A program made the position numbers and the translations under genes. The notes beneath the pieces were generated by a model. That model saw nothing but the letters and a program-made list of their open reading frames with translations, did no database searches and was not told the origin of the DNA. From Clostridia bacterium 41_269 (GTDB lineage: Bacteria > Bacillota > DTU086), in assembly GCA_001508005.1 (NCBI GenBank), contig LGEZ01000011.1, forward strand, positions 1 through 62,638: a stretch of 62,638 nt of DNA, in the 5' to 3' direction. Each line of letters opens with the position of its first letter. The first letter of the stretch is position 1. This document shows, one piece after another, positions 26,760 through 40,120 of this stretch.

Positions 26760-28511
26760 CTACCCCTTGGCTCCCTTTATGGTGCAGGGAATGCGTATCT
26801 TCTGACCTATCTGAAGGTTGTTGGGATCTATTCCTGGATTCAGTTTCATTATGGCTTCAACAGTGGTGTTATATCGCTTTGCTATCTTCCACAAGGTGTC
26901 GCCCCGCTGGACTATCACAATCTTAATTGGGTATTCTGATTCCTCTTCTTCCTCCTCTTCCTCCTGATCAGGTTTTTCTTCCCTTACATCCACTACCACT
27001 TCCATCTGAAGAGTCTCAGTAACTTTTGCAAATACGCTTAAAACAGCAGTTTGTGTTACGGGATAATCTTCGGGATCGTATTCGCCGTCTTTAAAGGCAC
27101 CGCATATCCAATGTGGAAAATCAGGCACTTCGTGATCTACATACTCCACGTCCACATTTACATGGAAATTCTGGTCCTTTTGTGCTCCAGGGACATCCAC
27201 AAAGGTAGTAAAGTCTTCTTCCACACTCTTTTCGAATACTGCTTCTGAACAGAGGTCAACGTAAAAAATCTGCTTTTTGAGAACTCCATCAACTATTACT
27301 TTATCGTCTATAACTTTGGTTTCCCTGCGGTTTATTTTAACATCAGTTATTGTTTCCACAATTTTCTTAACAGGTCTGTCGAAAATGATTTCATCCCTTA
27401 AATTAACCTGGCGTTCATTTTCCCCAACAACCCCTTGAACTTTAAGGAGATCCTTAACAACTTCTAGATTTTCACCCTCAACATCCACCACTACTTCAAG
27501 CTGCAGTTCTTCCGTAACCTTTACAAATACATCAAGAATAGCTGTCTGCTTTGCTTCTCTGAAGCCTTCTTTTCTGCTGCCCTTTTTCAAATCAATGTCC
27601 ACAAATTCAACATCCACATCCACACGAACAGTCTGATCTTCCATGGCTCCAAGAATATCCACAGATACGGTGAAGGGCTCATCAACGCTGGTCTCAAACA
27701 CTTTGTTGGTTTCGGCTTCAACAAACAGTATCTGCTTATGAAGTGTTCCTTCAACTATTACTTTATCGGGTATGATTTTTGCTTCCACATCCCTTACCTC
27801 AGCTATAACTTCCTTTACCTTTTTTGCCCGTCTGTTATTGGGAAATTCTATTTCACGTACAACTTCCACCTGCTTATTGGCTTCTCCGACAACACTTTCA
27901 ACTTTCAGCAGTTCCTTTTCAACTTCAATATCCTGCCTTTTAGAAATTACGTCCACTACAACTTCCATTTGAACAACCTCAAAGACTTTAACAAAAATCT
28001 CAAGAACGACTATCTGACGCCAGACATCCCTTACCTTGTCATCATGCCCATCATCATGATCATGATGTCCTCTATCATGATAATGTTCCTTATGCTTGTG
28101 CTTATCTTTATCATCCTTATCTTTTTTAATGTCTTCTAAATTTACATATTCTACCCTAACCTCAACATCCGCCTCAAAATCCTCCCGTGCCCCTGGGACA
28201 TCAACAAATTCAGTAAATTTTTCTTCAACAGTTTTTTCAAAAACTTCCCCTTCTTTGTAGTAAACGTCTTCTACCTTTTTATCTTCTCCTGCCACAAAAA
28301 ATATCTGCTTGTGAATGGTACCGCTAACTATAACCTTATCTTGTATAACTTCTGTTTCTATATCCCTAACATCAGCATCAACTTCCCAAATTTTCTTAAC
28401 TTTTACTGGAAACTTTACATCGCTTTTAATCTCAGTCTGCTTTACCTTTTCACCTACGACATTTTCAACCCTAAGAAGCTTCTTTTTTAGCTTTATTTTT
28501 TTACCAGACAT
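26760..28511 (-). CDS. SPOCS (DUF3794) repeat protein with C-terminal LysM
   Basis: 583 residues: three tandem SPOCS/DUF3794 units (starting near 8, 205 and 355; each repeats LLxVxxVVGE, VIVxGxLHKQI and MEVVVDV-like strands), an acidic linker (EEEEEEES, ~520) and a LysM domain (~530-577, RGDTLWKIAKRYNTT). Clostridial relatives are linked to the spore surface or cortex. Unit one carries a His/Asp/Lys-rich insert (~134-164). No signal peptide, which fits assembly from the mother-cell cytoplasm. It is near veg and lgt. Confidence 0.88.
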   Translation of the reverse strand: MSGKKIKLKKKLLRVENVVGEKVKQTEIKSDVKFPVKVKKIWEVDADVRDIETEVIQDKVIVSGTIHKQIFFVAGEDKKVEDVYYKEGEVFEKTVEEKFTEFVDVPGAREDFEADVEVRVEYVNLEDIKKDKDDKDKHKHKEHYHDRGHHDHDDGHDDKVRDVWRQIVVLEIFVKVFEVVQMEVVVDVISKRQDIEVEKELLKVESVVGEANKQVEVVREIEFPNNRRAKKVKEVIAEVRDVEAKIIPDKVIVEGTLHKQILFVEAETNKVFETSVDEPFTVSVDILGAMEDQTVRVDVDVEFVDIDLKKGSRKEGFREAKQTAILDVFVKVTEELQLEVVVDVEGENLEVVKDLLKVQGVVGENERQVNLRDEIIFDRPVKKIVETITDVKINRRETKVIDDKVIVDGVLKKQIFYVDLCSEAVFEKSVEEDFTTFVDVPGAQKDQNFHVNVDVEYVDHEVPDFPHWICGAFKDGEYDPEDYPVTQTAVLSVFAKVTETLQMEVVVDVREEKPDQEEEEEEEESEYPIKIVIVQRGDTLWKIAKRYNTTVEAIMKLNPGIDPNNLQIGQKIRIPCTIKGAKG

Positions 28512-28745: not shown

Positions 28746-28767
28746 GCTGCCGACTTCAGCCGGCAGC
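28746..28767 (-). terminator. Terminator after veg
   Basis: Stem GCTGCCG/CGGCAGC (extended by the inner CTTCAG region), minus-strand tail ATTTTTGTTTTTATA, seven bases past the veg stop. Confidence 0.88.
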
Positions 28768-29224: not shown

Positions 29225-30178
29225 CTAGTCTTCAACAATTATAGTTCCTGCCTGCTCCCTTAAAGCATCCGAAATATTTTCAAAGTCAGTTATAATTGCT
29301 TTTCCTCCACTTTCCTCTACAAATTCTACGGATGCTTCTATTTTCGGCAGCATACTTCCAGCTGCAAAACAGCCGTCCTCTATATATTTCCTGGCTTCGG
29401 ATACTGTTATCCGATCCAAAGGTTTTTGCTGGGGTGTTCCAAAATTCAGATAAACTTTAGGAACCCCTGTGAGCAGGACTAAATAGTCTGCTTTAAGATC
29501 CGCTGCAAGTCTTTGGGAAGCCCTATCTTTGTCTATAACTGCTTCCACTCCTCTTAATTGGCCGTTTTCTTCAACTACTGGTATGCCGCCTCCTCCCAAC
29601 GCTATTACAATAAAATCGTTTTTCACCAATTCTTTAATAGCCTTTACTCCTATAATTTCGATGGGTTTAGGAGACGGAACCACCCTTCGCCATCCCCGTC
29701 CGCTGTCTTCTTTCATAACAACATTGGGGTTTTCTTCCATCATTTTTTTGGCCTGTTCTTCGCTGTAAAAAGGACCAATGGGCTTGGTGGGATTGGAAAA
29801 AGCTTCATCATTTAAATCCACTTTGGTTTGAGTAATAAGGGCAGCCACTTCCCTCTTTACAAGGGCTTGGTTCAGCACATTGATCAGCTGCTGCTGAACA
29901 GCATATCCCAGTACCCCTTGGGTATTAGCACCACAGGCATCCAGAGGAAGAGGAGGAAGAACATCCTTTGCCATTTCATTTTTAATTAGCGCAAAACCCA
30001 CCTGAGGACCGTTACCATGGGTAATGACCATTCTATAGCCCCTTTTAATGGGATCAACAAGGGCTCTACAGGCTTTTCTAATATTGTCCAGCTGCTCTTG
30101 GAAGTTTCCTTTTCCTTTCTCAGGGGTAATGGCATTGCCGCCAAAGGCAATTACTACAGTTTTCTTATGATCAGCCAT
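29225..30178 (-). CDS. arcC: Carbamate kinase
   Basis: 317 residues, full amino-acid-kinase fold: IAFGGNAI at the N-terminus, THGNGPQVG (~53), the Cys-containing PLDACGANTQG (~78), LGGGGIPV (~200) and a late FxxGSMLPKIEA. It converts carbamoyl phosphate and ADP to ATP, CO2 and ammonia. The ATG is eight bases inside the DUF2877 stop, so translation is coupled. It closes the pathway started by AllFGH; in E. coli the equivalent position is AllK. Confidence 0.96.
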   Translation of the reverse strand: MADHKKTVVIAFGGNAITPEKGKGNFQEQLDNIRKACRALVDPIKRGYRMVITHGNGPQVGFALIKNEMAKDVLPPLPLDACGANTQGVLGYAVQQQLINVLNQALVKREVAALITQTKVDLNDEAFSNPTKPIGPFYSEEQAKKMMEENPNVVMKEDSGRGWRRVVPSPKPIEIIGVKAIKELVKNDFIVIALGGGGIPVVEENGQLRGVEAVIDKDRASQRLAADLKADYLVLLTGVPKVYLNFGTPQQKPLDRITVSEARKYIEDGCFAAGSMLPKIEASVEFVEESGGKAIITDFENISDALREQAGTIIVED

Positions 30179-30929
30179 TTCCTATCCTCCCATCCAAAAG
30201 AATTTTGCACCCCCGGACTATACCCGCAAGAAGATATTTCCCAGATGAAGCTCCGATCTTGAATAAATACTGTGCAGATCTTAAGGCATTGCCGCTGTTT
30301 GAATAAACGGCATCTATTACTTCCGTGATGTACAATGCACCTTCCCCTCGAGAGGCATACCAAAGCATTGTTTGGGAAACGGCATTGGTCTGAGAGCATT
30401 TTTCCTCAACCAAAAACTGAAGCTTTTGAAGAAAGGAGGCAAGCTCATCCTTTTCCTGATTTCCCCTAACATAAGCTGCTATAACTCCTGCAGCAAAGTC
30501 ATCCCCCGAGGGTGTAAGCCCTTCTCCCTTACCTATTAATTCATCAAGAGAAGAGGTGAGCAGAAGCATATCTTTCTTTTTCAATCCTTCAATTAGTCCC
30601 TCTGCACTGGGGCTTAATATTTCTATAAGATCTGGCACGGTGGTGTTAAGCCAGCACAGCAGGTTATTAAATTCCCTGCTGCCAAAATCATAGTTTGTCC
30701 GAGGAGGGGTCCAATCTTTTATAGGGGAAATACCAAATTTAAAACTGTTGATGGTTAAAACGGGTGGAGAAAAAACCACAGGGCTTTCTGTTTTTAAACT
30801 GCTGTCAAATCCATCTATGTCAGCTAAGAGGGAATTTGGCCCCATGGCTTTTTCTTCCACAACTAAGCTGAGTAGAGGTTTTTGGGGGTCCGATTTTAGA
30901 TTTACTACTTTTTTAAAGACACTGTGCAC
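30171..30929 (-). CDS. allH: Oxamate carbamoyltransferase subunit AllH (DUF2877/YlbF)
   Basis: 252 residues from GTG 30929, with the family core GKGEGLTPSGDDFAAG (~145-160). The family usually has about 25 more N-terminal residues before the VHSVF motif. Here they exist in frame upstream (AWGRDFKHRIKREKFW before the GTG) but no start codon precedes them in this frame. GTG 31014, with a good AAGGTG site, would read through if the T8 run 30992-30999 had seven Ts. So the true gene is probably 30171-31014 with an assembly indel. Confidence 0.82.
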   Translation of the reverse strand: MHSVFKKVVNLKSDPQKPLLSLVVEEKAMGPNSLLADIDGFDSSLKTESPVVFSPPVLTINSFKFGISPIKDWTPPRTNYDFGSREFNNLLCWLNTTVPDLIEILSPSAEGLIEGLKKKDMLLLTSSLDELIGKGEGLTPSGDDFAAGVIAAYVRGNQEKDELASFLQKLQFLVEEKCSQTNAVSQTMLWYASRGEGALYITEVIDAVYSNSGNALRSAQYLFKIGASSGKYLLAGIVRGCKILLDGRIGNG

Positions 30930-31049
30930 CCAAAATTTTTCTCTTTTAATGCGATGCTTAAAGTCTCTGCCCCAGGCTCTGACTGAAATAATTTTTTTTG
31001 CCGCTTCTGCTCACCCTCTCACCTTCTTTAAAACTTTAAAACAGCAAAA

Positions 31050-32609
31050 CTAATTTTCTTCTGCCAGCTCCCAATCTTCTAGATCTGTTGTAACGTTCTC
31101 TTCGCTTCTATAGTAAGCCATTGCATAGCAGAGTACAGCAATCATTAAATAACCCACTGCCGGATAGAGAGCTACGCCGATGCCCAATTCTGAAGCATGA
31201 ATCACGCCAAAGAAGCAGCATACAGCTCCAAAGAGGCTGTAGTAAGCAGCTTTTTTGAAATCACGGTCGATTATATAGGCAGTTATTGCTCCCAAAATCA
31301 TACCTACCAAAATTGCGCCAGCTCCTAATACGGACATTCCCTTATAAATCACACCTGCATTGCTCAGTACATCATAGCCTATTTCAGCAGCGCTGGTCCC
31401 TGCTGCAGATAGAGCATTATCAATTTGGTTTTGTAGATAGTTGGCAATCCACGGAATTAGAGCCAGAATGATTGCCGGTGCATGGCGCTTTGGTGTAGCA
31501 TTAAAGGACTGAGACCCAATAACCATGGCGATATAAACCAGAATAGGCAGAATAGCTACTAGCGGAATAATTGAAAGCATTAATGGCAAAAGACCGAGTA
31601 TTCCGATGATTATTACAGCTGCACCTGTGGCAAGGGAATAACCTACTCTGGCACCTACACTCTTCCAGCCCGGATGACCTATATAGATAATGGTGGGGAA
31701 TGGACTTCCCAGCAGAGCACCTAGGAGTGTGCCAAGGCCTGGAACCAGCATGCTTTCCTGAGTATTATATTTGCCCCCAGCTGCTTCGGCACTCTCGACA
31801 TTGTTTAAACTTTCTAGAAAATCATAAATTGCCAGTGGTATGGCTGAAGCAATAAAGGGACCAATCAATTTCATACCATTTATAATTGGCTCAATACCTA
31901 TAATGGGATAGGTAACAGAAAAACCTTTAAGAGCTTCTGTTATTTCTTCGGGTTTCATATATCCAGTAGCCCAACCAATTACAGTACCTACAATAATAGC
32001 CATAAGACCCGCTGGAATGTTAAAGGGGAAAGATTTACGGGCAAACCAACCTATAATAACGATGCCCAAACATATTAATCCAATGTGCGGAGCTTCCCAA
32101 ACCTGCATTGCTGGAGACATTGCAATGAATGTTAGGGCTACACCTGCCAATGTTCCAAGCATAGCGGCTCTTGGGGTAACTTTACGAATATAGCTTCCCA
32201 CAAAGGCTCCAGCAATCTCCACTATGGCATGAACGAAGTTCCAGGCTACACCTACGGACCAAGCTGTGATCCAATTTTTTGTGGAAACATAAACAGGAAG
32301 CATTACAGCAAAGGAACAGATAAAGTAATGGGGTACGCTCAATCCGTAAGGCATTGCTGTTACATCATCTCGACCTTCTTTTATGGAGAGCTTTTTGGCC
32401 TGCCAAGCTAGGTAGAGGTTGCCCAGGCCAACCGACAGTACTACTGCTGGAACAATTCTTTTGTACACAAGATCTGGAGGCATTTTTATGGAAATAACCA
32501 GGAGTCCAATGGCAGTTAATATATTAGTAAGGCTGTTGGTGAACAGTCCAAAAAATCCGTTTATATCCCCTTTAACCCACCAGGGAACAATTCTTCTTTC
32601 AGAAGACAT
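31050..32609 (-). CDS. NCS2/AzgA-like permease, paralogue 1
   Basis: 519 residues, about twelve to fourteen membrane segments. It resembles xanthine/uracil-type NCS2 carriers and has WWVKGDINGFFGLFTNSLTN at the N-terminus and TPRAAMLGTLAG and SLNNVESAEAAGGKYNTQES in the middle (part shown). Nearly the same landmarks occur in the permease at 33574. Likely proton- or cation-coupled uptake of a ureide, amide or purine-like compound. A possible internal promoter lies upstream at 32645-32673. Confidence 0.85.
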   Translation of the reverse strand: MSSERRIVPWWVKGDINGFFGLFTNSLTNILTAIGLLVISIKMPPDLVYKRIVPAVVLSVGLGNLYLAWQAKKLSIKEGRDDVTAMPYGLSVPHYFICSFAVMLPVYVSTKNWITAWSVGVAWNFVHAIVEIAGAFVGSYIRKVTPRAAMLGTLAGVALTFIAMSPAMQVWEAPHIGLICLGIVIIGWFARKSFPFNIPAGLMAIIVGTVIGWATGYMKPEEITEALKGFSVTYPIIGIEPIINGMKLIGPFIASAIPLAIYDFLESLNNVESAEAAGGKYNTQESMLVPGLGTLLGALLGSPFPTIIYIGHPGWKSVGARVGYSLATGAAVIIIGILGLLPLMLSIIPLVAILPILVYIAMVIGSQSFNATPKRHAPAIILALIPWIANYLQNQIDNALSAAGTSAAEIGYDVLSNAGVIYKGMSVLGAGAILVGMILGAITAYIIDRDFKKAAYYSLFGAVCCFFGVIHASELGIGVALYPAVGYLMIAVLCYAMAYYRSEENVTTDLEDWELAEEN

Positions 32610-32644
32610 CCCAGCATACCTCGCTTTCTGATAAATATTTGTAT

Positions 32645-32673
32645 ATTGTATCTATGAAACATAGAGGGTAAAA
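32645..32673 (-). promoter_or_regulatory. Internal promoter with palindrome before permease 1
   Basis: On the minus strand TTTTAC (32668-32673), 17 bases, TACAAT (32645-32650). The spacer holds the palindrome TCTATGAAACATAGA (32651-32665). This could be an operator letting permease 1, allH and arcC be expressed separately. Confidence 0.45.
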
Positions 32674-32742
32674 TTATATAAAACAAATCCACTTATCTCA
32701 TCAACTTCCATTTATTATTTTTTTAAATCATTCTCATGAGGG

Positions 32743-32844
32743 GGCCGGAGGTAGGCAGGCTGTGTTTTAAAAGGGCTGTCCCTTCCCAAGTTTATTGAAC
32801 TGGCATGATTTTTTATCCTGGGCACAGCCTGCCTGAGGTCCGGC
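32743..32844 (-). repeat. Long hairpin in the 247-base gap between hydrolase and permease 1
   Basis: Arms of about 21 bases (32743-32764, containing AGGCAGGCTGTG, and 32823-32844, containing CACAGCCTGCCT) enclose about 58 bases with a smaller AAGGGCTGTCCCTT hairpin. No clear T-run follows. It may be an mRNA processing or attenuation structure, or a degraded repeat; I do not recognise a riboswitch. Confidence 0.55.
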
Positions 32845-32856
32845 ATTAGAGGTTTA

Positions 32857-33540
32857 TCAAGCTTTTTTTGCTTCTTTTAAAGCTTTGAGCAGTTTTTCGG
32901 AATCAGAAACCCAACCAAAAATGCCGCCCTGCTGATAGGTCATTCTGACAGCAGCTTTATGATCTTCGGGGTCAAAGGCTGCTGAGCAGTCTTCCAGAAG
33001 CAGGCATTCGTATCCTCTGTCGTTTGCTTCACGAATTGTCGTATGGACACATACATGAGTAGTTACTCCAGTTACTATCAAACTCTTAATGCCTTTATTG
33101 CGCAAAATCAGGTCCAAATCTGTTTGGTAAAAGGATCCTTTACCTGGCTTATCAATAATGGGCTCATTGGGCAGAGGTTTTAATTCATCTACAATGTCAT
33201 GACCGTATTCCCCACGGATTAAAATCCTTCCCATGGGCCCTTCATCACCAATGCCCGCACCTTGCCTTCTGCTGCGGTTTAATTTGGTAGCAGGGCAGTC
33301 TGAAAGATCCGGACGATGTCCTTCACGGGTATGGATTACATACATTCCTGCTTCACGAGCTGCTTCCAGTACTTTTTGAAGGGGAGCAATTACTTTGCGG
33401 GTGAGGGTGATGTCATTTCCCAGCTTTTCACCAAAGCCGCCTGGAGCACAAAAGTCGCGCTGCATATCAATAATCAGCAGTGCAGTACTCTCCAGTTCAA
33501 ACTCAAAAGGATAAGGAAGGGCTTCAACTTTAATGGTCAT
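32857..33540 (-). CDS. Isochorismatase-family cysteine hydrolase (biuret/ureide amidohydrolase-like)
   Basis: 227 residues. Catalytic triad visible: Asp25 in IIDMQRDF, Lys near 131 in DKPGKGSFYQTDL, Cys near 165 in GVTTHVCVHTTIREANDRG. That last block resembles biuret hydrolase and ureidoacrylate hydrolase (RutB) more than true isochorismatases. It probably cuts a C-N amide or ureido bond to feed a carbamoylated acid to AllFGH. AAGGAGGAG precedes the ATG. It lies between the two permeases. Substrate not determinable from sequence. Confidence 0.85.
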   Translation of the reverse strand: MTIKVEALPYPFEFELESTALLIIDMQRDFCAPGGFGEKLGNDITLTRKVIAPLQKVLEAAREAGMYVIHTREGHRPDLSDCPATKLNRSRRQGAGIGDEGPMGRILIRGEYGHDIVDELKPLPNEPIIDKPGKGSFYQTDLDLILRNKGIKSLIVTGVTTHVCVHTTIREANDRGYECLLLEDCSAAFDPEDHKAAVRMTYQQGGIFGWVSDSEKLLKALKEAKKA

Positions 33541-33573
33541 TATTTAATCTCCTCCTTCTAAGTGAAATTAATT

Positions 33574-35133
33574 TTAAAATCTCAAAAACAAGGCAGGTTG
33601 ATTTTTTAAGCCCTTACACCCCCCCTCTTCTTTATGCTGAAATGGCATAATCAGGAATATAACTGCCATTAAAAGGTAGCCCACTGCTGGAAGCATTGCA
33701 GCACCAAAGCCAATATTTGCAGCGTGAATTATTCCAAAGTAGGACATAACCGCACCGGCAAGAGCTGTATACATTGCTTCACGATATCTGCTGTCAATTA
33801 TGAAAGCAGTTATTGCAGCCAGAAGCATTCCCACGATTATTGCGCCTGCACCAAGAATTTCCATACCCTTATAAATCACATCCGCCTGCATTAATTTTTC
33901 ATAACCAATAGTTTGGGCACTGGTTCCTGCAGCACTTAAAGCATTATCTACTAGAGATTTAGCCCAGTTTGCCAGCCACGGTATTATTCCCATAATAACT
34001 GCAGGTGCATGTCTGCTGGGTGTTGCTTGAAACGCTTGGGCTCCTATTGCCAGACCAATATATAGAAGCAAAGGCACAAGAGTTACAAGGGGTATGATGG
34101 ATAAAAGCAGAGGTATAATACCTGTAAAGCATATAAGCACAATGCATATTCCGCTGGCCAAAGAATAACCTATACGAGCTCCTACTTTCTTCCACCCTGC
34201 ATGTCCAATGTAGATAGCAATGGGGAATGGGCTGCCTAAAAAGCTTCCCACAAGAGAACTTAAACCGTCCACCAGCATAGCTTCCCGGGTATTGTAGTTG
34301 TCCCCTGCTGCGCTGGCACTCTCAAGGTTATCCATACTTTCAAGGAAGTTGTAAATTCCTAAAGGTATTGCTGAAGCTATATAAGGTCCTATAAGGCCAA
34401 AACCTTCAATCAGTGAAGAGATGGATGGCACCGGCCAGCTTACATGAACGCTAGATGCTGCTTGCGAAACAGCTTGGGGCTGCATATAGCCTGTAACCCA
34501 ACCTAGAGCAGTACCCGCTATAATAGCTAAAAGACCTGCGGGAATATTTCCCGGCATTCTCTGCCCACCCACAAATCCAATTAATATTATTGTTAGGCTC
34601 ACAAAAGCTATATAAGGTACTTCCCAACTCTGCATTGCAGGGCGCATGGATATTAAGCAGATGGATACCCCTGCCAGCGTCCCCAGCATTGCAGCTCTGG
34701 GAGTAATACTGCGCAGCCATGGGCCGATAAATGCTCCTAATATTGCAACAATTGCTTCAATAAAGCACCACGCTAATCCCACCTGCCATGCCAAAACCGC
34801 ATCCTTTGTCTTCATATAGACGGGCCCCATAATCATAAACACAATTATGAACATATGGGGCACACTAACACCAGAAGGCAGTGAAGTAACATCATCCCGC
34901 TTTTCATCGCGGCTGAGTCGTGCTCCCATCCAGAAGTAATAGAGAGCGTTTAGGAAAATCGTCAATCCCAAAGCCGGCATTATTCTGCCGTAAACAATTT
35001 CTTCAGGCATTTTAAGACCTTGAATTAAAATTCCGGCCAAAACCATTAAATTGGTAATATTGTTGGTAAAAAGCCCGAAGAAGCCGTTCCAATCTCCCTT
35101 TACCCACCATTTAACACCGTTGAAACTGCTCAT
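33574..35133 (-). CDS. NCS2/AzgA-like permease, paralogue 2
   Basis: 519 residues, paralogous to 31050-32609 along its whole length: VKWWVKGDWNGFFGLFTNNIT at the start (part shown), TPRAAMLGTLAGVSIC, and SMDNLESASAAGDNYNTREA. It ends differently (basic tail KGLKNQPALFLRF). AAGGGAAGGGG lies before ATG 35133. Two carriers may serve two substrates, or import and product export. Confidence 0.85.
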   Translation of the reverse strand: MSSFNGVKWWVKGDWNGFFGLFTNNITNLMVLAGILIQGLKMPEEIVYGRIMPALGLTIFLNALYYFWMGARLSRDEKRDDVTSLPSGVSVPHMFIIVFMIMGPVYMKTKDAVLAWQVGLAWCFIEAIVAILGAFIGPWLRSITPRAAMLGTLAGVSICLISMRPAMQSWEVPYIAFVSLTIILIGFVGGQRMPGNIPAGLLAIIAGTALGWVTGYMQPQAVSQAASSVHVSWPVPSISSLIEGFGLIGPYIASAIPLGIYNFLESMDNLESASAAGDNYNTREAMLVDGLSSLVGSFLGSPFPIAIYIGHAGWKKVGARIGYSLASGICIVLICFTGIIPLLLSIIPLVTLVPLLLYIGLAIGAQAFQATPSRHAPAVIMGIIPWLANWAKSLVDNALSAAGTSAQTIGYEKLMQADVIYKGMEILGAGAIIVGMLLAAITAFIIDSRYREAMYTALAGAVMSYFGIIHAANIGFGAAMLPAVGYLLMAVIFLIMPFQHKEEGGCKGLKNQPALFLRF

Positions 35134-35237
35134 TTCGAACCCCTTCCCTTTTATTTAATTTTTAGGATGTGGTTTTAAACCGGGTAATTTACACCCACAG
35201 AATACTTCGTTCGGTCCTGCGATCATTACTTTTTTGT

Positions 35238-36653
35238 TTATTCACAAGTTACCTCAGCAAAACGGCTTATGGCTGCTTTAAAGCACTCCATAGGAGCCCT
35301 CACTAAACCAGCACCTACCTGTCCAATTCCTGCTTCCCGATGAGCTATGCCTGTATTAATAATGGGACTGGTACCAGTTTCAACTACTTTTACAAGATCT
35401 ATTCCCACAGGTGTGGGCTGAAAGTCCAATAGGGGTATGGTATACGCTGGATTGACAGCCATAGTAATGTCGTACATTTCCTTTGTATAGTTAACAGCAT
35501 CTCCCACTGTACCCCCTACGAACTGAACAATTGCTGGAGCTGCTGCCATAGCAAAACCGCCTAGTCCACATGTTTCTGTAATTGCGCTGTCTCCTAGGTC
35601 AGGATTTGCATCGCTGTCGCTGAATCCTGGGAAATAAAGTCCGCTCACATGAGGTGCCGGTGCTGTAAACCACTCATCACCAAGCCCGCTCACCCTTATA
35701 CCAAACTCTACTCCGTTTCTGCACATAGCAGTAACAAGGGTACTGCCTTCTATGCCGTGGGCAGCATCAAGCACTGCTTTGCAGGCAGCCATGGAAATAT
35801 TGAGATAAAAGTGATCGTTGGAAACAAGAAATTCCACAACTTCTTTTAGTTCGCTGTCTTCACACACTTTCAAAAGTGCAGGGAGAATGGCTTTTATAAA
35901 TAGGGATGTTGCAGCTGTATTTCTGTTGTGGCACTCATCACCCATCTGCAGAGCTTTTGCTGTTATAGAAACAATATCTACACCGTCAAGCTCATTAACT
36001 GCCCTGCTCAAAGCTGGTGCCAAAACATCGCGCATCCAATTAAGCCTTTGAATAACATCCGAAGAATAGGCGCCAAAACGCAGGACCTTTCCTAAACCTT
36101 CGTTAAGGTTGGAATATGCTTTGTTTTCTCCAGCTTCATTTTTCACAACAAAGATAGGCATTGATGCTGAAATTATACCCGCCATGGGGCCAACTGCACC
36201 ATATTCATGGCATGGGGCAAACTTAATTTCTCCAGAAGCTGCAAGTTCTTCTGCTTTTTGGGGAGTGTCTGCCATTCCCTCATATATAAGAGCTCCTATT
36301 ACAGCCCCCCGCATGGGTCCGCACATTCTATCCCAGCTGATGGGAGGACCCGCATGAAGAATTAAATTTGGTTCAAATCCTGGGATTGCTTCTTTTGCAG
36401 GTTTTATATCCACCAGTTTAGGCCGAGCTTGAAGCATTCTGCTTACAGCCTGCTCATTTACCCTTTTTATATACTCATCTTTTTCCCAAAGAATGGACAG
36501 AATCTTAATCATTTCGGGGTCACCATTGGCAGGCGGCTTCCAGTCTAAATGAACATTGGGAACCCCGAGCGAAGTAAGATTTTCAGCAAAGGAATCCAAA
36601 CCTACATTGATAACCTTCACAGGCCCTTTTAAAAGATCTCTAGCCGTAGCCAA
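35238..36653 (-). CDS. allG: Oxamate carbamoyltransferase subunit AllG (DUF1116/YlbE)
   Basis: 471 residues, a complete DUF1116 protein: PNVHLDWKPPANGDPEMIKI near residue 33, GPPISWDRMCGPMRGAVIGA near 117, GDECHNRNTAATSLF near 238 and a GTVGDAVNYTKEMY block near 380 (partial quotes). E. coli AllG acts with AllF and AllH as oxamate carbamoyltransferase. Start TTG 36653 lies three bases after the allF stop, with AAGGGGGTG inside the allF end, so translation is coupled. Confidence 0.92.
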   Translation of the reverse strand: MATARDLLKGPVKVINVGLDSFAENLTSLGVPNVHLDWKPPANGDPEMIKILSILWEKDEYIKRVNEQAVSRMLQARPKLVDIKPAKEAIPGFEPNLILHAGPPISWDRMCGPMRGAVIGALIYEGMADTPQKAEELAASGEIKFAPCHEYGAVGPMAGIISASMPIFVVKNEAGENKAYSNLNEGLGKVLRFGAYSSDVIQRLNWMRDVLAPALSRAVNELDGVDIVSITAKALQMGDECHNRNTAATSLFIKAILPALLKVCEDSELKEVVEFLVSNDHFYLNISMAACKAVLDAAHGIEGSTLVTAMCRNGVEFGIRVSGLGDEWFTAPAPHVSGLYFPGFSDSDANPDLGDSAITETCGLGGFAMAAAPAIVQFVGGTVGDAVNYTKEMYDITMAVNPAYTIPLLDFQPTPVGIDLVKVVETGTSPIINTGIAHREAGIGQVGAGLVRAPMECFKAAISRFAEVTCE

Positions 36654-36656
36654 TTA

Positions 36657-38222
36657 CTACACCCCCTTACTCTCGAGCTGTTTGATTATTCTTCCTGCTA
36701 CCCGTGCTGCCTCAGCATTGGACGGAAGAACCATAATACCTGCTTTTTCAAGGGTTTCAACCTGGGCGCTAAGAGGCTGAGGATCTCCTTCCGTACCGCA
36801 GACAAAGGCAATAACTGCGGCATTATTATTGGGATAGGCCTCTCTGGCTTCCATAACAGCACGAGCCAGCTCTCCTGCAGGGTCTGGATGACTGCCGTAT
36901 CCCGTAACTACATCGCGGAGAATTACTGCAACCTCTGGATCTTTGTATTCCTGCAGCAGGCGTTCATTTCGGGGAAGGGGGTCAATCATTGGGTGTGGAC
37001 GTCCTCGGGTAAATTCATCATCGCCAAGGTCAATGATGGTATGGGCTTTGCTCTGCTGCGAGGAGGGGAGTCTTAATTCTGGCTTTAAGGGAATATTGGA
37101 ATAAATATCTCCTATGATGTTTCCCAATACCAGCATAGCTTCATCTGCCAGAGTTCCTCCGGTAAACAGGCCTCGCAAGTACTGCTGTTCAGGACGCATA
37201 TTCCTTACTGTTTCTGAAACCAGTTCAGAATAATCTCCCCAGAAATTTGCCGGTATAGTTAAAGGCTCTTCGCCGTTAGCTAAAGCTACAGCTTTATACG
37301 CTGCATCCTCAATGGTAGCTGCATATACAGCCCATGAAGAAAGAGAACCACTCAAATCCTCCTTTAAGATGCAAACAACAACAGGTTTTCTGCATTTTCT
37401 AACTCTCTCAAGTATTTTAGGGGTTGTCTGGGAACCCGCGGGCTTTGATACAAGGAGTATAACTTCCGTAGAGGGATCTTCTTCCAAAAGATCTATTCCC
37501 ATAAGCATCATTCGTCCTCCAACGGCACCGGATAAGTCCCTTCCTCCGGTGCCGATGGCATGGGAAATACCTGCTCCTAAGCGTTCGATCAAAACTGTGG
37601 CTTCCTGAATTCCTGTACCCGATGCTCCTACAATTCCTATTTTCCCACGCTCAACCACATTTGCGAAGGCAAGGGGTACTCCATCAATTATTGCTGTACC
37701 GCAATCTGGCCCCATCACAAGAAGTCCCTTTTGGCATCCTAATTCTTTCAGCCTAACTTCATCTTCCAAACTCACATTGTCGCTGAAAAGATGCACATTA
37801 AGGCCCATATTCAAAGCTTTAACTGCCTCAGCTGCGGCATAGGTTCCTGGTACTGAAATAAGAGCCAGATTTGCTCCAGGAAGAACTTCTACTCCTCTCT
37901 GTATTGTTTTGGGCAGCTTCTGTTTTTCTGTTTTTCCTTCTTCCACATTAAAAGTCTCCAGAAGCTTTTCAGCAGCTTTTAATGCCTTTTCTGCATGCTC
38001 TTCTTCGTCTGCCGCCACAACAATTACAAGATCATTGGCATTGGCTTCGGCAACTTCAGACACAAGAAGCCCTGCATCCTTTAAAACTGCTTTATTCATG
38101 TCTGTTGCCATTACCACTGAAGCCTGGCTGATCCCTTCCATTTCCTGTATCTCAGCAGTCAGCTTCATCAATTTCACTGAATCCTGATACATATTGGGCT
38201 TTATCAACCAGCGAACAACCAT
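36657..38222 (-). CDS. allF: Oxamate carbamoyltransferase subunit AllF (FdrA)
   Basis: 521 residues, FdrA family, related to the succinyl-CoA synthetase/ATP-citrate-lyase fold. Visible: VMGPDCGTAIIDGVPLAFAN (~170), IGIVGASGTGIQEA (~195) and GTGGRDLSGAVGG (~220), then a second half with TIIDLGDDEFTRGRPHPMID (~400). In E. coli it forms AllFGH, which interconverts oxalurate plus phosphate and oxamate plus carbamoyl phosphate. First gene of the operon; GAAAGAGGTG before the ATG; palindromes upstream. Confidence 0.92.
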   Translation of the reverse strand: MVVRWLIKPNMYQDSVKLMKLTAEIQEMEGISQASVVMATDMNKAVLKDAGLLVSEVAEANANDLVIVVAADEEEHAEKALKAAEKLLETFNVEEGKTEKQKLPKTIQRGVEVLPGANLALISVPGTYAAAEAVKALNMGLNVHLFSDNVSLEDEVRLKELGCQKGLLVMGPDCGTAIIDGVPLAFANVVERGKIGIVGASGTGIQEATVLIERLGAGISHAIGTGGRDLSGAVGGRMMLMGIDLLEEDPSTEVILLVSKPAGSQTTPKILERVRKCRKPVVVCILKEDLSGSLSSWAVYAATIEDAAYKAVALANGEEPLTIPANFWGDYSELVSETVRNMRPEQQYLRGLFTGGTLADEAMLVLGNIIGDIYSNIPLKPELRLPSSQQSKAHTIIDLGDDEFTRGRPHPMIDPLPRNERLLQEYKDPEVAVILRDVVTGYGSHPDPAGELARAVMEAREAYPNNNAAVIAFVCGTEGDPQPLSAQVETLEKAGIMVLPSNAEAARVAGRIIKQLESKGV

Positions 38223-38260
38223 AAATTTTTCACCTCTTTCAACAAGGCAGAAGTTTAAGG

Positions 38261-38326
38261 ATGTGCGCGCACATCATGATCCCAACTAAAACATTCAAAA
38301 CACTTTTTACCCTAGTTGAAGGGTAA
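38261..38326 (-). promoter_or_regulatory. Two palindromes upstream of allF (PucR operator candidates)
   Basis: ATGTGCGCGCACAT (38261-38274) is a perfect 14-base palindrome, and TTACCCTAGTTGAAGGGTAA (38307-38326) has seven-base arms around six bases. Both lie in the 245-base gap between pucR and allF, where the operon promoter must be. Which one a regulator binds is unknown. Confidence 0.5.
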
Positions 38327-38429
38327 CATTTTATGTGCATACTGCTCTATATAAGCTTGATACGAATACGTTCCTCATACTTTTATCAATTTTCTACAAA
38401 TATGTTTCCCTAAATAACCAAAAAAAAAA

Positions 38430-38447
38430 CTGCCGCTTAAGCGGCAG
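38430..38447 (-). terminator. Terminator after pucR
   Basis: Self-complementary CTGCCGCTTAAGCGGCAG followed on the minus strand by a run of nine Ts. It separates pucR from the allF operon. Confidence 0.92.
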
Positions 38448-38467
38448 CCCGAACTTTTAAACTATCG

Positions 38468-40120
38468 TTATTCCTTCATGTGGAAAATTTTTAGAGCTAG
38501 CTGAAGGCTGAGACAATCATCAGGAGACTTCAGATTAAGCCCTGTTATCTGCTGAATCCTATTTACCCTGTATCTAATGGTGTTGTAATGAATGAATAAC
38601 TGATCCGCTGTTTTCTGCAGATTCATTTCGTTGGCAAAAAGCGCTTCAAGGGTCTCCACAAGCTCTCCATTGTGCTTCTTATCATAAGAAACCAGCCGTC
38701 CCAATATATCTTCATAAAACTTGTCTATCTCCTTCATATCAGAAGTAAGGAGAATTCGATATACCCCCAGGTCATCAAAGTGGAAAACCTTTTTTGAGCC
38801 AGGAGTACAGCTTCCTACCTTAAGCGCTTTTTGAGCCTGTTTAATCCCTTCAACTATATTTAAAGGGTCCTCTATATAGCGGCTTATCCCAGCAACAGCC
38901 TGCCAATTGAGTGCCTTCTCCAGCTCTTTAACACATGATTCTGCCAAAACTTCAGAATTCATCCTAAACTGTTGTGTATCGCTGTTATTCTTAAACGCAT
39001 GGAGGATCATAAGCTGACTTCCCCTTTCAACTATGGCAGATCCTGGGGAAATCAGTTTAACTACTCTGGAAACCGTATCAAGCATTTTAAGCCTTTTCTG
39101 CCTTGCCTGCACCGGATCCTGACTGTACAGCTGTTGAAGATCGCTGCTCTCAAACAAAATAACAGAAAAACCGTTGGCAAGCTCCCAACCAAACCTTTCA
39201 GCCAAAACCACAGCATCTTCTTTGGAAGAAATTTTTCCATCTATGATATCTTCAATGAAGTTCCGCTTAAATCTAGATTCTACATCAAATACAGCATGCT
39301 GTTTGCTTATTTCCAGAGCAATAGCTGTTACGGCTTGATCTATTCCTACCATTTCTCGTTCCGACAAATGCTTCACAGGTTCCCAGATGATAAGGTAGCC
39401 GTATACTTCATCCTCTACGGTAACTGGACGGCACACAGCACTAATACCACCGGTATCGAATGTGAGCTTTCTTCCTTCTCTTTTTTTGTATACCGCAGCC
39501 AGCTGTCTGCTGTCTTTAGCCAGCTCGGATAAAAGCCGGTTTTTAGTAACCCCGAAATCCTTGGGCGTTAAGCAGGAAGATATTTTTCTAAACTCGGGAT
39601 CGTGAATGGAAACGGGACAGCCCAGAAGTCTGGCCAAAGCCATTGATATTCCGTTTAAGCCACCACCGTGAAGTATAATTTCTGTAAGCGCATTGTTGAT
39701 TTTTTCGTTTCGTTGTAAAATCGCAGCTTGGCGGTTGAGAATCTCTGTCAATATGGGATTAATAATTTCATTAAAGGACGAATGTTTTGGTAGTTTAATA
39801 AGGGGAAAATCATACTGCTCTGCCTGTTCAATCATAATTTTTGGGATTTCGGGTATATATCGCTCAGGCTTAATGGCCAAAGCCGACAGGCCCTGCTGAT
39901 TTAATTTGGGAATTAATTTTTCCAAAGCCTTTTGATTATCCTTTAAGGGATAAGCAGTAGTAAGAAGAAGCTCATTGGGTTTAATAAATTTCTCAATATC
40001 AGGCACTTCCATAATATTAACGGAATGAATTACACGGTCTATTCCTTTTTTACCACCCACAAGAACTGCCCCTTCCATTTGAGGCAGCTCCATAGCTTCC
40101 CTTACGGTAATCCCAAACAT
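38468..40120 (-). CDS. pucR: PucR family transcriptional regulator
   Basis: 550 residues: N-terminal PucR domain (1-125, ITVREAMELPQMEGAVLVGG), a middle GGDEF-like CdaR region (~280-420), and a C-terminal helix-turn-helix (~490-545, ADQLFIHYNTIRYRVNRIQQI, partly quoted). PucR proteins activate purine/ureide catabolic genes in response to pathway metabolites. It is just upstream of, and co-directional with, the allF operon but separately terminated. AGGAGGTG before the ATG. Confidence 0.93.
   Translation of the reverse strand: MFGITVREAMELPQMEGAVLVGGKKGIDRVIHSVNIMEVPDIEKFIKPNELLLTTAYPLKDNQKALEKLIPKLNQQGLSALAIKPERYIPEIPKIMIEQAEQYDFPLIKLPKHSSFNEIINPILTEILNRQAAILQRNEKINNALTEIILHGGGLNGISMALARLLGCPVSIHDPEFRKISSCLTPKDFGVTKNRLLSELAKDSRQLAAVYKKREGRKLTFDTGGISAVCRPVTVEDEVYGYLIIWEPVKHLSEREMVGIDQAVTAIALEISKQHAVFDVESRFKRNFIEDIIDGKISSKEDAVVLAERFGWELANGFSVILFESSDLQQLYSQDPVQARQKRLKMLDTVSRVVKLISPGSAIVERGSQLMILHAFKNNSDTQQFRMNSEVLAESCVKELEKALNWQAVAGISRYIEDPLNIVEGIKQAQKALKVGSCTPGSKKVFHFDDLGVYRILLTSDMKEIDKFYEDILGRLVSYDKKHNGELVETLEALFANEMNLQKTADQLFIHYNTIRYRVNRIQQITGLNLKSPDDCLSLQLALKIFHMKE

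Follow-up and report, generated by a model that had tools for sequence, protein, structure and literature searches.

Clostridia bacterium 41_269 carries an operon that would, in our reading, draw ATP from a carboxylated ureide: its three-subunit transcarbamylase AllFGH would phosphorolyse 1-carboxybiuret to carbamoyl phosphate and allophanate, and carbamate kinase would then make ATP. We give this reading a probability of roughly 55%. The operon was found in a stretch of 62,638 nucleotides (hereafter the window) of a genome of 1.67 Mb and 95.5% completeness (G000). Eight minus-strand genes lie at 29225-40120 with short gaps between them:

38468..40120, minus strand, PucR-family regulator (pucR; PF07905 with 118 bits, PF13556, PF17853)
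36657..38222, minus strand, allF, fdrA-type transcarbamylase subunit (PRK06091, 516 bits, cut-off 433)
35238..36653, minus strand, allG, DUF1116-type subunit (PF06545, 334 bits)
33574..35133, minus strand, permease A, SLC23/26 (NCS2) fold (AlphaFold pLDDT 90; Foldseek matches to UraA, UapA and SVCT1)
32857..33540, minus strand, isochorismatase-type cysteine hydrolase of the BiuH/TrtA family (PF00857 with 167 bits, residues, tree)
31050..32609, minus strand, permease B, paralogue of permease A (56% identity)
30171..30929, minus strand, allH, DUF2877-type subunit (PF11392, 68 bits, cut-off 25)
29225..30178, minus strand, carbamate kinase, overlapping allH by 8 bases (TIGR00746, 408 bits, cut-off 358)

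AllF, AllG and AllH stand in one operon and all score over curated cut-offs, which places them in the AllFGH family, and the carbamate kinase belongs to its family by the TIGR00746 score. These four genes and pucR had been named in a first-pass annotation of the sequence, and their coordinates and family scores hold. Because the same operon, with its order sometimes changed, recurs in unrelated organisms (loci L078, L106 on a Peptoclostridium acidaminophilum plasmid, L113, L116, L117 and L119), the neighbourhood is not due to chance.

In the proposed pathway, permeases of the SLC23 fold would import a ureide, linear or cyclic; for this organism triuret is the most likely candidate. The TrtA-type hydrolase would strip one terminal amide as ammonia, leaving 1-carboxybiuret (H2N-CO-NH-CO-NH-COO-), which AllFGH would split with inorganic phosphate (Pi) into carbamoyl phosphate and allophanate, in place of its close chemical analogue oxalurate. 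Carbamate kinase, whose step is established for the family, would convert carbamoyl phosphate and ADP to ATP and carbamate (NH3 + CO2). In Moorella-like relatives, a cyanuric acid hydrolase (CAH) would provide the 1-carboxybiuret instead. The allophanate may undergo a second phosphorolysis, lose CO2 spontaneously to give urea, be exported (perhaps via the second permease) or pass to AtzF where that enzyme is present. We infer the substrates, including that of AllFGH, and the direction of transport from gene content, family membership, specificity residues, phylogeny, the repeated swap of the front-end enzyme and the absence of rival pathways. The first-pass annotation had this anaerobe fermenting a different ureide or amide for ATP, an idea that the absent allantoin pathway and the pairing with a ureide hydrolase largely support and that now has a specific substrate. 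It also had the hydrolase preparing a carbamoylated acid; judged from its sequence, the enzyme more probably turns an uncharged ureide into a carboxylated one, either 1-carboxybiuret or allophanate. The AllFGH substrate itself is probably a carboxylated ureide of the biuret series, or biuret, and not oxalurate.

The AllFGH of Escherichia coli, the only characterised member, is an oxamic transcarbamylase that makes carbamoyl phosphate from oxalurate (PMC11326118). Activity on oxalurate, earlier taken as established for the cluster, is established for that enzyme only: identity to the E. coli proteins is 39% for the window AllF and 50% for its AllG, and the two form a clade with AllFG found beside a proven CAH. 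Leaving aside the window's own type, their nearest homologues stand in such loci; those of L069 are 74% (AllF, beside the CAH) and 72% (AllG) identical. Between the L069 CAH and the solved 6BUM protein, every mismatch is a change introduced when that construct was engineered, so the L069 protein is the wild-type CAH of Moorella thermoacetica, a proven enzyme that yields carboxybiuret (PMC6557486). Barbiturate or ureidomalonate was set aside as the Moorella substrate, since this CAH is a proven cyanuric acid hydrolase and is inhibited by barbiturate (PMC6557486). The L069 cluster holds a partial orthologue of the window PucR (65% over 281 amino acids), and L078 has one with 79% identity.

The link between AllFGH and CAH extends across the phylum. 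Among 399 genomes sampled, AtzD/CAH-family genes are found in 12, and 10 of those 12 also have AllG, compared with 59 of 399 overall (Fisher p = 1e-7); in nine phylum genomes the CAH lies within or adjoins the AllFGH cluster. On the combined AllF and AllG tree, the window and L078, both with a TrtA-type hydrolase, group with four CAH-linked Moorella-type loci (support 100/100), while L106 (TrtA-type) groups with G163, whose operon holds a CAH and a BiuH-type hydrolase (100/99). Trees of either protein by itself give the same picture. The allF and allG of G163 lie on either side of a contig break, and their presumed joint goes by matching orientation. TrtA and CAH are unrelated proteins that share the product 1-carboxybiuret (PMC7948467), and they have been exchanged repeatedly on the same AllFG lineage. 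It is mainly because of this swapping that we name 1-carboxybiuret as the AllFGH substrate. Chemically, the compound differs from oxalurate by one additional NH in front of the carboxylate.

Other AllFGH clusters show further arrangements. One genome (G209; loci L083 and L095) has two AllFG clusters: one has a CAH, and the other, with PucR and a permease A homologue, branches as the sister of the window/Moorella clade. At L087, L092 and L096, an AtzD-family gene, possibly a barbiturase or another ring opener supplying AllFGH, adjoins AllF and a pair of neighbouring AllG copies; in L087 and L092, AllB/AllC-like genes are close by as well. Inside the CAH-BiuH-AllHF operon of G163, L103:3995-5191 encodes an amidohydrolase-family protein that may be a deaminase of the ammelide/ammeline type, acting upstream of cyanuric acid. 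In gut-type genomes (L044-L066), AllFGH has yet another front end: its neighbours are molybdenum hydroxylase subunits, a PF04199 cyclase and carriers of the UraA type.

We then turn to the hydrolase. The first-pass annotation had described an isochorismatase-type enzyme with a biuret/RutB-like active-site context. The isochorismatase type holds, and the enzyme belongs to the BiuH/TrtA family. RutB, the ureidoacrylate amidohydrolase of the pyrimidine pathway, was rejected (TIGR03614, 136 bits under a cut-off of 378), and the protein falls short of the BiuH equivalog as well (NF050097, 322 bits, cut-off 370). TrtA converts triuret to 1-carboxybiuret and NH3, BiuH converts biuret to allophanate and NH3, and six positions separate them, occupied in TrtA by F35, N41, A134, E160, Y187 and I205 (PMC7948467). 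The window hydrolase has F, N, S, H, F and I at these positions: it agrees with TrtA at three of them (F35, N41 and I205) and with BiuH at position 134 (A134S), and departs from both at the other two (E160H and Y187F). The A134S change is neutral in TrtA (PMC7948467), and close relatives of the window hydrolase have A at position 134. Our own alignment adds W209 as a further TrtA-side letter. The catalytic D, K, K and C and the substrate-binding Q (the DKKCQ pattern) are conserved; they are common to BiuH and TrtA and do not discriminate. In the tree, the window hydrolase falls on the 66-row TrtA side (SH-aLRT 94), within a subclade of 13 rows (90) that lies apart from the assayed TrtA and its clade. 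By residues and tree, the enzyme is placed on the triuret-hydrolase side of the family, and triuret is the most likely predicted substrate in this organism, tentatively so because two pocket positions are odd.

If the enzyme were instead a biuret hydrolase, AllFGH would convert allophanate and Pi to carbamoyl phosphate and carbamate. Its identity to two characterised biuret hydrolases (59% to the Rhizobium BiuH and 58% to the Rhodococcus BiuH, with 53% to the Herbaspirillum TrtA) is consistent with this, as are NCBIfam BiuH being its best named match at 322 bits, the presence at L103 of a BiuH-type hydrolase together with CAH and AllF, and the allophanate-hydrolase C-terminal (AH_C) domains in related operons. 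The score nevertheless stays under a cut-off that the BiuH-type protein of L110, from a BiuH/TrtA/AtzF operon, passes (421 against 370), and the residues and tree given above point to TrtA. In addition, no BiuH/TrtA orthologue was found in the Moorella-type CAH-AllFGH genomes searched, so that AllFGH of the Moorella/window clade must function without BiuH, and Paenibacillus loci L120, L121 and L152 carry the window type of hydrolase adjoining a BiuH-type one. We therefore regard a biuret hydrolase as unlikely here; our initial model, in which BiuH made allophanate for AllFGH, was demoted by the specificity residues and the Moorella-type genomes that have no BiuH.

The two odd residues could also mean that the variant acts outside the biuret/triuret series, for example on the oxamate that AllFGH forms from oxalurate. 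Among the 13 sequences of the subclade, E160H and Y187F for the most part change together, and they alter the part of the pocket close to the substrate's distal end. The operon logic is however the same at six loci where the hydrolase matches TrtA at every one of the six positions (L107, L109, L118, L127, L130 and L156), and members of the variant subclade adjoin BiuH-type hydrolases in pairs of the BiuH/TrtA kind, making such a departure very improbable.

Gene neighbourhoods also favour the proposed pathway through 1-carboxybiuret. We compared 80 named loci of the nearest hydrolase relatives, a set selected for similarity to the window and lacking phylogenetic independence. AllFG lies near 14 of the 32 loci that have a TrtA-type hydrolase only, versus two of the 48 with a BiuH-type one (p = 2e-5). 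BiuH, AtzE or AtzF occurs in 5/16 TrtA-type loci with AllFG, versus 44/55 (p = 5e-4), a partial mutual exclusion. TrtA-type hydrolases have three alternative downstream modules: BiuH with AtzF, AtzE with AtzF, and AllFGH with carbamate kinase. L127 and L130 join a full-length but divergent AtzF to the AllFGH module, as would follow if allophanate were among the products.

The "hypothetical" protein beside AllFGH on E. coli plasmids proved to be an AH_C domain (PF21986, 143.5 bits). From the part this domain plays in allophanate hydrolase, it probably takes CO2 off an N-carboxy group. In Mycobacterium (L145:13563-14978, L154:12651-14063) and Hyphomicrobiales (L179:3970-5313), the carbamate kinase itself is fused to AH_C, downstream of a TrtA-type hydrolase, AllF and AllG. 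Free or fused, AH_C is present in 7/16 AllFG loci and 1/64 of the other loci in the named set, and its presence ties the AllFGH module to allophanate-type chemistry. The window operon has no AH_C domain.

These patterns bear on the possibility of two separate pathways in one operon, in which AllFGH would act on imported oxalurate and the hydrolase would salvage nitrogen from biuret or triuret. Such a division agrees with the proven oxamate carbamoyltransferase of E. coli (PMC11326118) and is the published reading of biuH/trtA with allFGHK in nitrifiers (PMC12625717). It leaves unexplained the recurrence of two unrelated same-product enzymes on one AllFG lineage, the partial mutual exclusion with BiuH/AtzE/AtzF, the kinase-AH_C fusions and a window genome without any known allophanate-consuming enzyme. 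We consider it distinctly unlikely.

E. coli plasmids (L107, L108) and Photobacterium (L109) share a cassette of TrtA-type hydrolase, AllH, AllF, AllG, carbamate kinase, free AH_C and a CodB-like permease with a LysR regulator. The cassette hydrolase in both carries all six TrtA residues, and 90 Escherichia plasmid records match it, many among those listed coming from poultry. At L122:6786 and L158:8536, very divergent AllG homologues are found near a TrtA-type hydrolase and a permease, with no recognisable AllF.

No competing route for these compounds was found in the window genome. As the first-pass annotation had stated for the cluster, allantoinase, allantoate hydrolase and ureidoglycolate dehydrogenase are missing, and a genome-wide profile check of G000 found none over cut-off: the best allantoinase match reaches 225 bits under a cut-off of 358, and AllC and the AllD family (Ldh_2) have zero matches. 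A full allantoin pathway elsewhere in G000, which would have spoken against the fermentation of another ureide, was looked for and not found. The absence of the allantoin pathway holds for the whole genome, within its 95.5% completeness. G000 likewise has no AtzD/CAH and no full-length allophanate hydrolase (best match 208 bits under 511, amidase part only), which leaves it outside the AtzD/AtzEF route of cyanuric acid mineralisation, and no urease over cut-off.

The urease result bears on one further possibility, that AllFGH cleaves biuret, formed by spontaneous decarboxylation of carboxybiuret, to carbamoyl phosphate and urea. Carboxybiuret does decay to biuret with a half-life of ~20 min (PMC7948467), and the scheme would suit CAH and TrtA front ends alike. 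However, biuret lacks the terminal carboxylate that the known AllFGH substrate carries; BiuH would compete for biuret within the L103 operon; and the window genome has no urease, though urea could be excreted. We judge this scheme improbable.

Several observations weigh against 1-carboxybiuret as the substrate. The sole characterised AllFGH uses oxalurate. The window hydrolase is slightly closer overall to BiuH than to the Herbaspirillum TrtA, and its E160H and Y187F fit neither. In the AllFGH operon of L103/L082, the BiuH-type hydrolase beside CAH fits allophanate equally with carboxybiuret. The locus counts come from window-similar loci that are phylogenetically non-independent, and the phylum-wide test on the hydrolase by itself is small (3/4 with AllG, p = 0.01), with the window itself one of the three.

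Permeases A and B were annotated as paralogous NCS2-like carriers. They are indeed paralogous, and permease B is 89% identical to the L078 copy. Neither matches any Pfam family over cut-off, even when matches are listed to E<5, or any NCBIfam transporter family. The AlphaFold model of permease A matches structures of UraA, UapA, SVCT1 and SLC26 (Foldseek, best E ~2e-7, TM 0.5-0.6), and by this model the description as NCS2-like is true at the level of fold, which is of the UraA type. Homologues of permease A adjoin TrtA-type hydrolases in 36 of 71 loci; the two proteins belong to a large SLC23/26-fold family, common beside these hydrolases, that Pfam and NCBIfam models leave unmatched. In one AllFGH operon, an ankyrin/TPR-repeat protein (L093:12327-13592), which we take to resemble YahD of the E. 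coli yah cluster, separates carbamate kinase from a permease A homologue.

Two terminator-like hairpins, both on the minus strand, flank parts of the operon:

38427..38450, between pucR and allF, a 10-pair stem with a T-run
28746..28767, downstream of carbamate kinase, a 9-pair stem with a T-run

The first suggests that pucR forms a separate transcript. Promoter and terminator scans of the region gave no more sites than shuffled sequence did, and an Rfam search for a riboswitch upstream of the operon gave matches at chance level only. Beyond the operon, window positions 26760-28511 encode a 583 amino acid protein that, judged by eye, has repeated SPOCS/DUF3794-looking domains and a C-terminal LysM.

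The odds are about even that AllFGH outside enterobacteria include a 1-carboxybiuret (possibly allophanate) carbamoyltransferase which, with CAH or TrtA, gives anaerobes ATP from cyanuric acid or triuret. If so, a three-subunit transcarbamylase with one known substrate gains a second, ecologically wider one, and by-products of s-triazines and urea fertiliser become fermentable for ATP, which would add a new way of gaining energy from a nitrogen compound of the pollutant type. The route would be an alternative to AtzEF and BiuH-AtzF that conserves energy; those two break the same bonds by hydrolysis and gain none. It would also offer a rationale for allFGHK in ammonia-oxidising archaea, comammox bacteria and mycobacteria, and for the cassette on many E. 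coli plasmids, several from poultry. The cyanuric acid hydrolase of Moorella is a commercial enzyme; the open-licence literature that we found holds no account of how Moorella uses its product. A search of that literature found no paper proposing a joint pathway of carboxybiuret or biuret hydrolase with carbamoyl phosphate and carbamate kinase.

Among known systems, allFGHK of E. coli has the same three subunits and kinase and the same logic from carbamoyl phosphate to ATP (PMC11326118). It adjoins allECD and acts on oxalurate, whereas the window copy, with AllF and AllG 39-50% identical, stands with a TrtA-type hydrolase and without allantoin genes. TrtA-BiuH-AtzF operons (PMC7948467) share with the window the hydrolase family and three of the six TrtA specificity residues; in the window, AllFGH and carbamate kinase take the place of BiuH and AtzF and would save the energy that hydrolysis loses. 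The Moorella thermoacetica CAH cluster has AllF and AllG 74% and 72% identical to those of the window, a related PucR and carbamate kinase, but differs in its CAH front end, its transporters and a genome without a BiuH/TrtA orthologue. Arginine deiminase, agmatine and YgeW routes also combine a ureide with Pi to give carbamoyl phosphate and then use carbamate kinase; their transcarbamylases have the OTC fold, and AllFGH is unrelated to them in sequence (PMC11326118). The nitrifier neighbourhoods published in 2025 (PMC12625717) show ureide hydrolases placed with allFGHK in the same way. There it was read as two pathways, one for biuret/triuret and one for oxalurate, whereas we propose a single pathway, in a different phylum, from the CAH swap, the kinase-AH_C fusions and the specificity residues.

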